The translations under genes were made by a program, and so were the position numbers. Of a DNA stretch of 64,000 bases, positions 46,649 through 59,806 are shown one piece after another. Below the pieces are notes generated by a model. It searched no databases. It saw nothing but the letters and a program-made list of their open reading frames with translations, and was not told where the DNA came from. The stretch covers positions 4,092,001-4,156,000 of the forward strand of contig NZ_CP071868.1 in NCBI RefSeq assembly GCF_017569225.1. Direction: 5' to 3'. This DNA is from Pengzhenrongella sicca (GTDB taxonomy: Bacteria > Actinomycetota > Actinomycetes > Actinomycetales > Cellulomonadaceae). The stretch's first letter is position 1, and every line of letters starts with the position of its first letter.

Positions 46649-46696
46649 TGCGCACATCTAGGGGTACGTACGCAATTGGACCACTACATCTAGCGC
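46649..46696 (+). promoter_or_regulatory. Pair of NrdR-box-like sites upstream of nrdAB
   Basis: Two 16-bp sites, TGCGCACATCTAGGGG (46649-46664) and CCACTACATCTAGCGC (46681-46696), match the NrdR-box pattern (ACACTA-N4-TAGTGT), the second best, and start exactly 32 bp apart, the three-turn spacing typical of NrdR operators. The first overlaps a perfect palindrome TAGATG-CGCA-CATCTA. NrdR would repress nrdAB when dATP is high. The rest of 46522-46835 shows no gene. Confidence 0.65.
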
Positions 46697-49827: not shown

Positions 49828-50820
49828 ATGGGCGACCATCAGATACTCGGCACCGGGATCTCCGAGGGCCTCCTGCTCAAGCCGGTCCGCTACCAGTGGG
49901 CGATGGACCTGTACCAGCAGGCGGTCGCGAACACCTGGTTCCCGAACGAGATCCAGCTCGGCGAGGACCTCGCGGACTTCAAGCGGATGACCGCGGAGGA
50001 GAAGCACGCGGTCACGTTCCTGATGTCGTACTTCAACCCGAACGAGCTGCTGGTCAACAAGGCCCTCGCCTTCGGCGTGTACCCCTACATCAACGCCCCA
50101 GAGGCGCACCTGTACCTCGCCAAGCAGATGTGGGAGGAGGCCAACCACTGCATGGCGTTCGAGTACGTGCTCGAGACGTTCCCGATCGACCGCGCCGAGG
50201 CGTACGACTCGCACATCACCGTGCCGTCGATGGCCGCGAAGGAGGCCTTCCAGGTCACCTACATCAAGCGCATGACCGAGCAGCGCCTCGACATCACGAC
50301 CACAGCGGGCAAGCGCGACTTCGTGCGCAACCTCGTGGCCTACAACATCATCCTCGAGGGCATCTGGTTCTACTCGGGCTTCATGGTCGCGCTGAGCTTC
50401 CGGCAGCGGAACCTGCTGCGGAACTTCGGCTCGCTGATGGACTGGGTCGTGCGCGACGAGTCGCTGCACCTGAAGTTCGGCATCAACCTGATCCTCACGG
50501 TGCTCGACGAGAACGAGGACCTGCAGACGGCCGAGTTCGCCGACGAGATCCGCGGGATGATCCTCGAGGCCGTCGAGATGGAGGAGCAGTACAACCGCGA
50601 CCTGCTGCCCTCGGGCATCCTCGGGCTGAACGCCGACTACGTGAACCAGTACGTCAAGTACCTGGCCGACCGGCGCCTCGAGGAGCTCGGGTTCGAGCCG
50701 CACTACAACGTCTCCAACCCCGCCAAGTGGATGGCCGCGGCGAACGACACCCTCCAGCTCGTGAACTTTTTCGAGGCCACGAACACGTCGTACGAGGTCA
50801 ACGCGCGATCCGGAAGCTGA
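49828..50820 (+). CDS. nrdB: Class Ic-type ribonucleotide reductase beta subunit (Phe at the radical site)
   Basis: 330 aa, ATG preceded by GAAGGAG. Metal ligands: Glu73 (PNELLV), Glu104 and His107 (EEANH), Glu177 (ILEGIWFYSGF), Glu211 and His214 (RDESLH). Four residues after His107, where Tyr122 of E. coli sits, is Phe111 (codon TTC 50158-50160). This, Glu73 instead of Asp and blocks such as LPSGILGLNADYVNQYVKYLADRRLE match chlamydial class Ic R2, which uses a Mn(IV)/Fe(III) centre and no tyrosyl radical. I infer class Ic. It pairs with the alpha subunit 70 nt upstream. Whether another Tyr takes over cannot be seen. Confidence 0.92.
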   Translation: MGDHQILGTGISEGLLLKPVRYQWAMDLYQQAVANTWFPNEIQLGEDLADFKRMTAEEKHAVTFLMSYFNPNELLVNKALAFGVYPYINAPEAHLYLAKQMWEEANHCMAFEYVLETFPIDRAEAYDSHITVPSMAAKEAFQVTYIKRMTEQRLDITTTAGKRDFVRNLVAYNIILEGIWFYSGFMVALSFRQRNLLRNFGSLMDWVVRDESLHLKFGINLILTVLDENEDLQTAEFADEIRGMILEAVEMEEQYNRDLLPSGILGLNADYVNQYVKYLADRRLEELGFEPHYNVSNPAKWMAAANDTLQLVNFFEATNTSYEVNARSGS

Positions 50821-55796: not shown

Positions 55797-56852
<1,056 letters not shown>

Positions 56853-56875: not shown

Positions 56876-59020
56876 TCACAGCATGCAGCTGACGCAACCC
56901 TCAACCTCGGTGCCCTCCAGGGCCATCTGCCGCAGGCGAATGTAGTAGATCGTCTTGATGCCCTTGCGCCACGCGTAGATCTGGGCCTTGTTGATGTCAC
57001 GCGTCGTGGCGGTGTCCTTGAAGAACAGCGTCAGCGACAGGCCCTGGTCCACGTGCTGGGTGGCCGCGGCGTAGGTGTCGATGATCTTCTCGTAGCCGAT
57101 CTCGTACGCGTCCGCGTAGTACTCGAGGTTGTCGTTCGTCAGGAACGGCGCCGGGTAGTAGACGCGCCCGATCTTGCCCTCCTTGCGAATCTCGATCTTC
57201 GAGGCGACCGGGTGGATCGACGACGTCGAGTTGTTGATGTACGAGATCGAGCCCGTCGGCGGCACGGCCTGCAGGTTCTGGTTGTAGAGCCCGTGCGCCA
57301 TGACCGACGCCGCAAGCTCGCGCCAGTCGTCGGCCGTCGGGATCGCGATGCCCGAGGTGTCGAACAGCTCCCGCACGCGGGCCGTGGCCGGCTCCCACGT
57401 CTGGTCGATGTACTTCGTGAAGTACGCGCCGCTCGCGTAGGTCGAGTCCGCGAACCCGTCGAACGACTTCCCGCGCTCGATCGCGAGCAGGTTCGACGCG
57501 CGGATCGCGTGGAACGCGACCGTGTAGAAGTAGATGTTCGTGAAGTCGAGGCCCTCGGCGGAGCCGTAGTGGATCCGCTCGCGCGCGAGGTACCCGTGCA
57601 GGTTCATCTGGCCGAGGCCGATGGCGTGCCCGCCCTCGTTCGCACGCTTGACCGACGGGACCGACTCGATGCTCGTCTGGTCGGAGACCGCGGTGAGCGC
57701 GCGGATCGCCGTCTCGACCGTGAGGGCGAAGTCCGGGGAGTCCATCGCGAGCGCGATGTTGAGCGAGCCGAGGTTGCAGGAGATGTCCTTGCCGACGTGG
57801 CTGTAGGACAGGTCCTCGTTGAACGTCGACGGCGTCGCGACCTGGAGGATCTCCGAGCACAGGTTCGAGTGCGTGATCTTGCCGGCGATCGGGTTCGCCC
57901 GGTTCACCGTGTCCTCGAACATCAGGTACGGGTAGCCGGACTCGAACTGGATCTCGGCGAGGATCTGGAAGAAGTCGCGCGCCTTGATCTTCGACTTCTT
58001 GATGCGGCCGTCGTCGACCATCTCCGCGTACTTCTCGGTCACGTTGATGTCGGCGAAGGGCACGCCGTAGACGCGCTCGACGTCGTACGGCGAGAACAGG
58101 TACATGTCCTCGTTGTTCTTCGCGAGCTCGAACGTGATGTCGGGGATGACGACGCCGAGGGACAGCGTCTTGATCCGGACCTTCTCGTCGGCGTTCTCGC
58201 GCTTGGTGTCGAGGAACCGCAGGATGTCGGGGTGGTGCGCGTGCAGGTACACCGCGCCCGCACCCTGGCGGGCGCCGAGCTGGTTGGCGTAGGAGAACGA
58301 GTCTTCGAGCAGCTTCATCACGGGGATGACGCCGGACGACTGGTTCTCGATGTGCTTGATCGGCGCGCCGTGCTCGCGCAGGTTGCTCAGCAGCAGCGCG
58401 ACGCCGCCGCCGCGCTTGGACAGCTGGAGCGCGGAGTTGATGCCGCGCGCGATCGACTCCATGTTGTCCTCGATGCGCAGCAGGAAGCAGGACACGGACT
58501 CGCCGCGCTGCGCCTTGCCGGAGTTGAGGAACGTCGGGGTCGCGGGCTGGAAGCGCCCGGCGATGATCTCGTCGACGACGTGCTCGGCGAAGGCCTCGTT
58601 GCCGTCCGCGAGCGTGAGCGCGACCATGCACACGCGGTCCTCGAACCGCTCGAGGTACCGCTTTCCGTCGAACGTCTTCAGCGTGTACGACGTGTAGTAC
58701 TTGAACGCGCCGAGGAACGTCTGGAAGCGGAACTTCGCGCCGTAGGCGCGCTTGAACAGCGACTTGATGAACGCCGGGTCGTACTTGGCCAGGATGCCCG
58801 GCTCGTAGTACTTGTTCTCGACCAGGTAGTCGAGCTTCTCCGTGAGGTTGTGGAAGAAGACCGTGTTCTGGTTGACGTGCTGCAGGAAGTACTGGTGCGC
58901 CGCAGCCTTGTCCTTGTCGAACTGGATCTCGCCGTTCGGGCCGTAGAGATTCAGCATCGCGTTGAGGGAGTGGTAGTCGAGCTCCGCGTCTACGCCGGGA
59001 TCTGTCGTTGCCTGAGCCAA
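56876..59020 (-). CDS. nrdE: Class Ib ribonucleotide reductase alpha subunit
   Basis: 714 aa, the usual NrdE length. No ATP-cone, as in class Ib. Active-site features: [14 protein letters not shown] and [12 protein letters not shown] (disulfide Cys pair), NLCSEI (thiyl-radical Cys and Glu), [11 protein letters not shown] (twin Tyr) and the C-terminal redox tail CVSCML. It is the catalytic subunit for dNDP synthesis. Its start lies 31 nt inside nrdI. Confidence 0.97.
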
Positions 59021-59412
59021 AACTGGTCCAATCCATCGCGGACGCCGATGACGTCCTCAGGGGTGCCGAGCAGCTCGAAGCCGTACAGGTACGGGACGTT
59101 GCACTTGGCAGAGATGATTGATCCGGCGATGCAGTACGCGGCGCCGAAGTTGGTGTTACCCGCCGCGATCACGCCGCGGATCAACGACCGGTTGTGCGCG
59201 TCGTTCAGGAACTTAATGACCTGACGCGGGACGGCGCCGGCCTCGGTGCCGCCGCCGTAGGTCGGGACGATGAGTACGTACGGCGCCTCGACCCGCAGGG
59301 GCGCGTCCGCGGCGCGCAACGGGATGCGGTCGGCCGGGAGGCCGAGCCGCTGCACGAAGCGATGGGTGTTCTCCGACGAACTGGAGAAGTAGACGAGGGA
59401 GCTCACGACCAC
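58990..59412 (-). CDS. nrdI: Flavodoxin-like NrdI
   Basis: 140 aa, GTG start (GTG 59406 is also possible). FMN-binding flavodoxin fold: [18 protein letters not shown] phosphate loop, [43 protein letters not shown] and [17 protein letters not shown]. NrdI supplies the oxidant for assembling the NrdF Mn2-tyrosyl cofactor. The gene lies between nrdH (28 nt upstream) and nrdE (31-bp overlap). Confidence 0.95.
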
Positions 59413-59440: not shown

Positions 59441-59683
59441 TCAGGCTACTGCGGCGGCGAGCGGCGCGAGCGAGCTGATCCGGTCCGGGCGGTAGCCCGA
59501 CCAGTGCTCGGAGCCGGCGATCACGACGGGTGCCTGCAGGTAGCCGAGGTCACGCACCATCTCGAGCGCCGCGGCGTCCTCGGTGATGTCGACCGAGGTG
59601 TAGACGACCCCGTGCTTGTCGAGTGCGCGGTAGGTGGCGTCGCACTGGACGCAGGACGGCTTGCTGAAAACGGTGACGGTCAT
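59441..59683 (-). CDS. nrdH: Glutaredoxin-like NrdH redoxin
   Basis: 80 aa, ATG. Starts [28 protein letters not shown] with the CVQC redox pair (typical NrdH CxxC), and has [19 protein letters not shown], the NrdH signature replacing the glutathione site. It is the electron donor to NrdE, itself reduced by thioredoxin reductase. First gene of the operon; NrdR-box pair upstream. Confidence 0.96.
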
Positions 59684-59758: not shown

Positions 59759-59806
59759 ACACTACACCTTGTGGTCGATGAGCGCATCAACCACTACACG
59801 TGGTGT
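59759..59806 (-). promoter_or_regulatory. Pair of NrdR-box-like sites in the nrdH promoter
   Basis: Plus-strand sites ACACTACACCTTGTGG (59759-59774) and CCACTACACGTGGTGT (59791-59806) start 32 bp apart, as before nrdAB. On the minus strand TTGATG (-35, 59785-59790) and TGTAGT (-10, 59761-59766) are 18 nt apart, with one box over the -10 and the other just upstream of -35. NrdR binding would block RNA polymerase. Confidence 0.75.

Follow-up and report, generated by a model that had tools for sequence, protein, structure and literature searches.

The window, a 64,000-nucleotide stretch of the Pengzhenrongella sicca genome, encodes a ribonucleotide reductase (RNR) beta subunit, NrdB, with the class Ic-like residue pair Phe111/Glu73. 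It is fairly likely that nrdAB forms a working aerobic class I RNR with a metal-centred Mn/Fe oxidant, a second, interchangeable RNR beside a class Ib enzyme. We consider it quite likely that the thiol arm of NrdA has become a free protein acting in trans in Saccharibacteria, Microbacteriaceae and phages, that this state changed at least twice, and that the RNR passed from one phylum to another, possibly carried by phages; the window has the fused form.

The RNR genes of the window were as follows:

49828..50820, plus strand: nrdB, class I RNR beta subunit with Phe111/Glu73 (class Ic-like) and Trp206; ATG start, 330 aa
46836..49757, plus strand: nrdA, the partner alpha subunit, with ATP cone, barrel, Pro/Ala-rich linker and fused C-terminal redox tail ending ...VDPMERLQCESCQ (profiles)
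55827..56816, minus strand: nrdF, class Ib beta subunit, Asp/Tyr type (TIGR04171, 484.6 bits; cut-off 355)
56876..59020, minus strand: nrdE, class Ib alpha subunit (above the NCBIfam cut-off)
58990..59412, minus strand: nrdI, flavoprotein (above the NCBIfam cut-off)
59441..59683, minus strand: nrdH, redoxin (above the NCBIfam cut-off)

The gene order was upp, nrdAB, SDR, ... nrdHIEF, with the SDR-like gene (weak matches) directly after nrdB. As the first-pass annotation had stated, a full Tyr-type nrdHIEF is present in the same region; it is complete, lies about 5 kb downstream of nrdB on the opposite strand, and its NrdF is of the Asp/Tyr type. The start of nrdA is presumably GTG 46836; the mechanical ORF opens at TTG 46704, from which NrdA residue numbers were counted. 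All nine E. coli R1 positions that were checked are kept in the window NrdA (C303, N515, C517, E519, C532, Y839, Y840, C1013 and C1016). The genome (4.395 Mb, one contig) contains two PF02867 genes, two R2 genes, one NrdD, one NrdR and one Nramp, and thus three RNRs, the anaerobic NrdD included. A class II RNR was rejected for this genome, as PF02867 matched nrdA and nrdE only.

NrdB matched the Pfam profile PF00268 at 1.1e-73 and NF007186 with 397 bits (cut-off 237). Alignment to the Chlamydia trachomatis R2 structure 1syy showed a one-to-one match of the six metal ligands (E73=E89, E104=E120, H107=H123, E177=E193, E211=E227 and H214=H230) and further pairs at F111=F127, W37=W51, D210=D226 and Y322=Y338; the seven residues named earlier (the six ligands and Phe111) and the assignment of Glu as first ligand were correct. 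W37, D210 and Y322 of the radical route are present, as is F181 of the pocket (F197 in C. trachomatis). The protein has the features of a class I RNR beta subunit, namely a ferritin-like R2 fold, four carboxylates, two histidines, the radical-transfer Tyr near the C-terminus (Y322) and, upstream, nrdA as the gene of its R1 partner. The top PDB matches by sequence were 1syy (E 3e-69) and 4d8f (E 4e-69), and the top fold matches of the predicted model (mean pLDDT 72) were 1syy and 4m1i.

A genome scan confirmed at least 564 relatives, of which the best 80, 73–88% identical to the window NrdB, were analysed. E73, F111 and W206 were present in 80/80 of these best relatives, one of which is cut before Y322, and E73/F111 in 28/28 full-length phage NrdB, where five duplicate others. 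Phe111 is therefore no lone mutation; a lone Phe change in a Tyr-type NrdB was what the first-pass annotation had named as refuting its proposal. Class Ic is marked by the Phe/Glu pair and class Id by Tyr/Glu (PMC8463856). In the window NrdB, F111 lies four residues after the EXXH histidine and E73 is the first ligand, so that the pair is neither the Tyr/Glu of class Id nor the Tyr/Asp of class Ia/Ib, and the class Ic-like pairing proposed earlier extends across the clade. Y222, a relay for cofactor assembly, is described as conserved among R2c proteins (PMC4118035); the window NrdB and 80/80 of the best of at least 564 relatives have Trp206 there. At this position, the 11 Glu/Phe rows that belong neither to the window clade nor to L019/L021 have Tyr (8) or Phe (3). 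The Glu/Phe and Asp/Tyr rows were separated cleanly at columns 73 and 111 only, and partially at 170 and 190.

The actinobacterial families among the best 80 of at least 564 relatives were Microbacteriaceae, Demequinaceae, Nocardioidaceae, Jiangellaceae, Dermacoccaceae and Propionibacteriaceae; the rest came from contigs titled Saccharibacteria, Saccharimonadia or Patescibacteria, with 44–52% G+C. On these Saccharibacteria-type contigs nrdA lies upstream of nrdB wherever the contig extends far enough, and some are about genome-sized (971 kb and 1.16 Mb), so that contamination can hardly be the general cause. L087 and L110, whose contigs are titled ‘bacterium’ and ‘Ktedonobacteraceae’, have an NrdB inside the Saccharibacteria clade of the tree, probably through mis-binning. 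Of 396 genomes from the window's phylum, 57 matched the family model at 1e-45 or better, 11 of the matches being above the cut-off, and among the loci inspected from this set the window type was found only in G000 and G253. It was also found in 7/59 relatives and in 2/5 genomes of the genus, the window's own genome being included in both counts. Screening of 286 genomes from the phylum of L129 gave 31 above the cut-off; of 32 inspected (30 above the cut-off and 2 weaker), 12 belonged to the window clade (66–84% identical), and the remaining 20 comprised 9 other Glu/Phe, 10 Asp/Tyr and 1 Glu/Tyr. L175 (G705), from the same phylum, has a Glu/Tyr R2 (class Id-like pair), 20% identical.

The window-type nrdA was the sole PF02867 gene, and hence the only RNR found by the R1 model, in 12/12 Saccharibacteria genomes; NrdD was present in 1/12. 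No close relative of NrdB was found on plasmids or isolated phages, where all matches (1258 plasmid and 2957 phage) were below 60% identity. In titles and abstract openings of the literature on Saccharibacteria RNR and on mntH, nrdB and class Ic, the enzyme, the linkage and the transfer were unreported. Tropheryma whipplei is an actinobacterium. Its listing as class Ic (PMC4009431) means that class Ic in Actinomycetota is not new. Class Ic is described as occurring primarily in extremophiles and pathogens (PMC4118035); here a Glu/Phe enzyme was found in several families of ordinary actinobacteria and on phage contigs.

To place the window NrdB we built a careful R2 tree of 50 proteins from which columns 73 and 111 had been removed. 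The window clade joined L019/L021 (94/93) and then actinobacterial Asp/Tyr NrdB (93/86, below the decisive-branch threshold), and 1syy with chlamydial R2c was located elsewhere, together with Pseudomonas-type Asp/Tyr, haloarchaeal and Patescibacteria Glu/Phe proteins and 6y2n; several long branches were flagged. A single clade of all Glu/Phe rows was rejected at the borderline (p-AU 0.0495, for a group defined after the tree was seen), and a tree uniting the window clade with the chlamydia/Pseudomonas-type group was not rejected (p-AU 0.196). Gain or loss of the Glu/Phe state has therefore probably occurred more than once. The tree position (93/86) and W206 in place of Y222 indicate that the window NrdB probably lies outside the chlamydial R2c lineage. 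The chlamydial likeness claimed earlier stands, C. trachomatis R2c being the top match in both sequence and fold; shared descent is not supported by the best tree, which places 1syy elsewhere.

The C. trachomatis class Ic R2 (1syy, 4d8f and 4m1i) shares with the window NrdB all metal ligands, the Phe/Glu pair and the equivalents of W51, D226, F197 and Y338 at 36–37% identity; it differs in having Tyr222 for Trp206 and in its branch of the best R2 tree, and relatives of the window protein partly have mntH nearby and in many cases a detached NrdA tail. The R2 of Saccharopolyspora erythraea (6y2n; source in PMC7467353) and the haloarchaeal and Patescibacteria Glu/Phe R2 proteins share the Glu/Phe pair, but at no more than 37% identity, in another clade, and with Tyr or (L161-L163) Phe at the Trp206 position. 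The nearest clade (93/86), actinobacterial Asp/Tyr NrdB (L011, L034, L044, L036 and a Georgenia plasmid), shares Trp206, in agreement with the tree, and differs in the Asp/Tyr pair and, presumably, a tyrosyl radical. With an Asp/Tyr clade as nearest neighbour and just two positions that divide the types cleanly, the change of R2 cofactor becomes testable by swaps between relatives. Another pair, Glu/Leu at the first-ligand and radical-Tyr positions, was seen in the Actinomycetota R2 proteins L028, L029, L030 and L033; R2c proteins with Leu have been described before (PMC3824934). Next to one R2 of the Glu/Leu group (L235), the NrdA lacks a Cys pair at its end.

We clustered the ORFs in the neighbourhood of the 80 loci (best 80 of at least 564) without prior hypothesis and considered the 40 largest of those clusters that spanned 6 or more loci. 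Shadow ORFs aside, the non-nrd clusters present in both phyla were an ABC-ATPase (22 loci), an ArgS-like protein (7 loci, named by eye) and an Nramp protein (9 loci), the last on the nrdB strand every time. The Saccharibacteria Nramp protein matched PF01566 and the MntH model NF001923 (451 bits, cut-off 430). We counted mntH when it shared the strand of nrdB and followed nrdB by no more than 2 kb; a locus had enough room if 2.5 kb or more of sequence lay after nrdB. The gene was found in 9/69 roomy loci from the best 80 of at least 564 and in 1/5 roomy loci from 6 further ones, i.e. in 10/74 clade loci, as against 0/59 control loci with room (60 controls in all: 20 NrdF, 20 Asp/Tyr NrdB and 20 others). 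The Fisher p of 0.0023 for this comparison overstates the linkage, since the mntH loci are related and represent about four family-level lineages (Jiangella; Flexivirga and G058; Aeromicrobium; Saccharibacteria). The linked genes were:

mntH-type Nramp at most 2 kb behind nrdB: L095:10185-11396, L118, L125, L129, L096, L105, L114, L115, L116, L155

In Saccharibacteria a CYTH-domain gene lies between nrdB and mntH. No mntH was found behind nrdB in 64/74 clade loci or in the window, and the one Nramp gene of the window's genome lies elsewhere (G000:C1:3717739). The linked MntH proteins formed no single clade in the best tree, and a single clade was not rejected (p-AU 0.162); they may have one origin or several, and the tree neither backs nor rejects mntH and nrdAB travelling as one cassette. 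Whatever the number of MntH origins, the nrdB-mntH pairing points to a Mn-using RNR and provides genomic evidence for the metal.

We infer that NrdB would bind a metal pair, with Mn as the likeliest occupant of site 1 and Fe of site 2, and that its reaction with O2 would leave an oxidising equivalent on a Mn(IV)/Fe(III) centre, tyrosine not being used. This equivalent would travel via H107-D210-W37 and Y322 and reach NrdA at Y839/Y840 and C517, and the assembly electron would probably enter via W37, with Trp206 standing where the chlamydial Tyr222 sits. A dimanganese Mn(IV)/Mn(III) oxidant made with superoxide, as in class Id, appears unlikely: class Id has Tyr/Glu (PMC8463856), whereas the window NrdB has Phe/Glu, and the class Id structures 8dq3 and 5olk ranked 31st or lower in the fold search with the NrdB model. 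The Glu first ligand is nevertheless as in class Id, and the mntH linkage would suit Mn/Mn equally to Mn/Fe. The same linkage argues against a diiron centre without a tyrosyl radical, its oxidant on iron or another residue, and we know of no characterised RNR of that kind. This alternative, which we hold to be very improbable, could draw on the tree-nearest clade, which is Asp/Tyr and presumably diiron, and on the ligand set, which does not fix the metal, its specificity not being set by the first ligand alone (PMC4118035).

An R2lox oxidase instead of an RNR subunit can practically be discounted: Glu is the first ligand there too (PMC4118035), but nrdA adjoins nrdB, the C-terminal Tyr that R2lox lacks is retained (Y322), F181 (Ct F197) is retained where R2lox has Ala (PMC4118035), and the five matching R2lox models all scored below their cut-offs. 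A decaying Tyr-type NrdB or pseudogene with a lone Tyr-to-Phe change, conceivable insofar as the genome has a second aerobic RNR, is ruled out by E73/F111 in 80/80 of the best of at least 564 relatives and in 28/28 phage copies, and runs against the clade nrdA being the only PF02867 gene in the 12 Saccharibacteria genomes.

Regulation was examined with the NrdR-box consensus taken from PMC4009431, which gave the following sites:

46681..46696, plus strand: NrdR-box-like site upstream of nrdA, 11/16 matches; partner site weak
59759..59774, minus strand: NrdR-box-like site 1 upstream of nrdH, 12/16
59791..59806, minus strand: NrdR-box-like site 2 upstream of nrdH, 11/16; 32 bp from site 1

Thus the window's nrdH promoter has a strong NrdR-box-like pair (23), and its nrdA has one strong site and no strong pair. 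Paired sites about three helical turns apart were found upstream of nrdA in 53/67 loci (pair score at least 21), with 14/67 below this threshold; the window nrdA is outside the 67. The controls gave 38 pairs in 3350 first-order Markov resamplings and none in 62 downstream stretches. The pattern of sites suggests that both aerobic RNRs are probably under NrdR.

Both nrdAB and nrdHIEF are kept in G001 and G016. G004 has ABC transporter ORFs where nrdAB would be (by eye), and in G011, G035 and G044 nrdAB follows upp and no NrdF was found. Together with G058, these three have nrdAB and no further R2 (NF007186, E 0.001); second PF02867 genes, presumably of class II, occur in G011, G035, G058 and G253. 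The earlier suggestion that the cell switches between cofactors under stress found no support, as relatives keep nrdAB, nrdHIEF or both, and NrdR-box-like sites are present at nrdH as well as nrdA. The pattern resembles a pair of interchangeable aerobic enzymes, one or the other lost in particular lineages, and not a switch.

The tails of R1 proteins act across the dimer; they are recycled by thioredoxin, and tyrosines serve in radical transfer. In class I R1 the C-terminal tail is disordered, and its Cys pair reduces the active site (PMC9669993). The window NrdA has this redox tail fused behind a Pro/Ala-rich linker. Tails were counted in 68 of the 80 loci (best 80 of at least 564) with an NrdA ORF above 900 bits, 12 being dropped; the NrdA of one dropped Saccharibacteria locus, L084, reads as two pieces. 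Among the 68, 17 were fused, 49 were split and 2 had no tail behind NrdA. In one of these two, L134, the tail gene lies behind nrdB (open frame from about 9446). L106 showed no tail gene within its 17 kb. The split was present in 17/17 Saccharibacteria-clade loci (L087 and L110 included) and 33/51 actinobacterial loci from the best 80 of at least 564. Split NrdA ends soon after a GFGF/GFGG motif, and the tail follows as a separate ORF:

Saccharibacteria tail gene between nrdA and nrdB: L078, L095, L118, L126, L129
Actinobacterial tail genes: L057-L133, Microbacteriaceae and a few other actinobacterial loci

The predicted separate tail proteins are about 20–60 aa long and typically end in DPMDxLQCDSCQ or DPADLTMCEGCQ. 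Those of Saccharibacteria are mostly 57 aa, with the conserved start MNAxxIIxDxMTLEEKLAAID; the actinobacterial ones are mostly 20–37 aa and directly follow nrdA, often overlapping or near its stop. The same split was found in seven more Saccharibacteria-type loci (L139-L145), three of which are genomes already counted. A Shine-Dalgarno-like site precedes 14/16 Saccharibacteria and 23/33 actinobacterial tail genes and is missing from 2/16 and 10/33. Median pN/pS of the tail genes, a rough measure here as pS (0.56–0.70) is near saturation, was 0.30 in Saccharibacteria (pN<pS in 120/120 pairs) and 0.44 in actinobacteria (509/528, the other 19/528 not having pN<pS), suggesting purifying selection. 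In Saccharibacteria loci L085, L125, L126 and L132, tiny Cys-rich ORFs, e.g. one ending CTCDCCKDCKSCTTK, lie beside the tail gene between nrdA and nrdB.

In the controls the Cys pair was at the end of the same ORF in 20/20 NrdE, 20/20 Asp/Tyr NrdA, 7/7 whole NrdA of other Glu/Phe type (9 loci), 3/4 Glu/Leu, and 2/3 and 3/4 Patescibacteria NrdA. Tail-type short ORFs seldom arise by chance: 20 were found in 292 kb, whereas 764 kb of control sequence yielded 1 and 1463 kb of shuffled sequence 4. The single control case was L238, a Glu/Phe Patescibacteria locus from another clade, in which a tail-less NrdA is followed by an ORF ending NLNVCESCQ. Four tail proteins showed no convincing family in Pfam/NCBIfam, and one searched against plasmids had no match.

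On the NrdB tree (44 rows with known state) the split and fused states needed 2 changes, suggesting at least two events, either two splits or a split and a re-fusion. In L150 (G016) the NrdA body and Cys tail are in different frames, either because the Pro-rich linker contains a sequencing error or because the gene is genuinely split. Programmed frameshifting or stop read-through was rejected as a general route to full NrdA, because tail genes occur in all three frames relative to nrdA and some lie behind nrdB or before nrdA. The active-site cysteines of the NrdA body are kept (15/15 and 24/24 rows), which makes a tail acting in trans the simplest reading: the tail protein would reduce the NrdA active-site disulfide, perhaps docking by its own N-terminal part. 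If so, the action of an R1 tail in trans could be studied with a natural, separately addable component. The split class II NrdJa/NrdJb is similar in that one R1 polypeptide is encoded as two pieces, but its second chain is large and has folded domains (PMC9669993), whereas the window relatives are class I with only a short redox tail separate, and the window itself is fused.

The enzyme is common to Actinomycetota and Saccharibacteria at 73–88% identity (best 80 of at least 564). In the NrdA tree (44 rows, with even-numbered actinobacterial loci only) Saccharibacteria and Actinomycetota each formed a clade of their own, with supports of 99 and 83. The NrdB tree united Saccharibacteria and L158-L160 in one clade (94) but gave the actinobacterial side only 41. 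The Patescibacteria rows L146 and L157 branched first in one tree, an arrangement that shifted once phages were added.

A scan of IMG/VR gave 34 loci (L264-L297) with NrdB 68–82% identical to that of the window. Each of the 28 full-length phage NrdB (23 distinct) carries Trp206 together with the complete residue set; 26 grouped with the Microbacteriaceae/Micrococcales rows L121 and L133 (SH-aLRT 99) and 2 with a Patescibacteria row. In INPHARED, no phage was at least 60% identical for NrdB, and a phage NrdA had no match of at least 60% among the 5000 records listed. A separate tail gene was found within 5 kb in 20/34 viral loci, before nrdA, before nrdB or after nrdB, and none in 14/34 within the 5 kb fetched on each side; whole phage NrdA lacked the tail in 3/3 cases. 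L274 is flanked by a protein with weak tail-protein similarity, ThyX, dCMP deaminase and polynucleotide kinase, and L285 by an endolysin-like peptidase. Phages are a possible carrier of the window-type RNR. Intein/Hint-like by eye, and with no Pfam or PHROG match, are L274:4043-4975 and L285:1586-2533 beside the nrd genes, and the NrdA of L290 contains an intein-like insert just under the Pfam cut-off.
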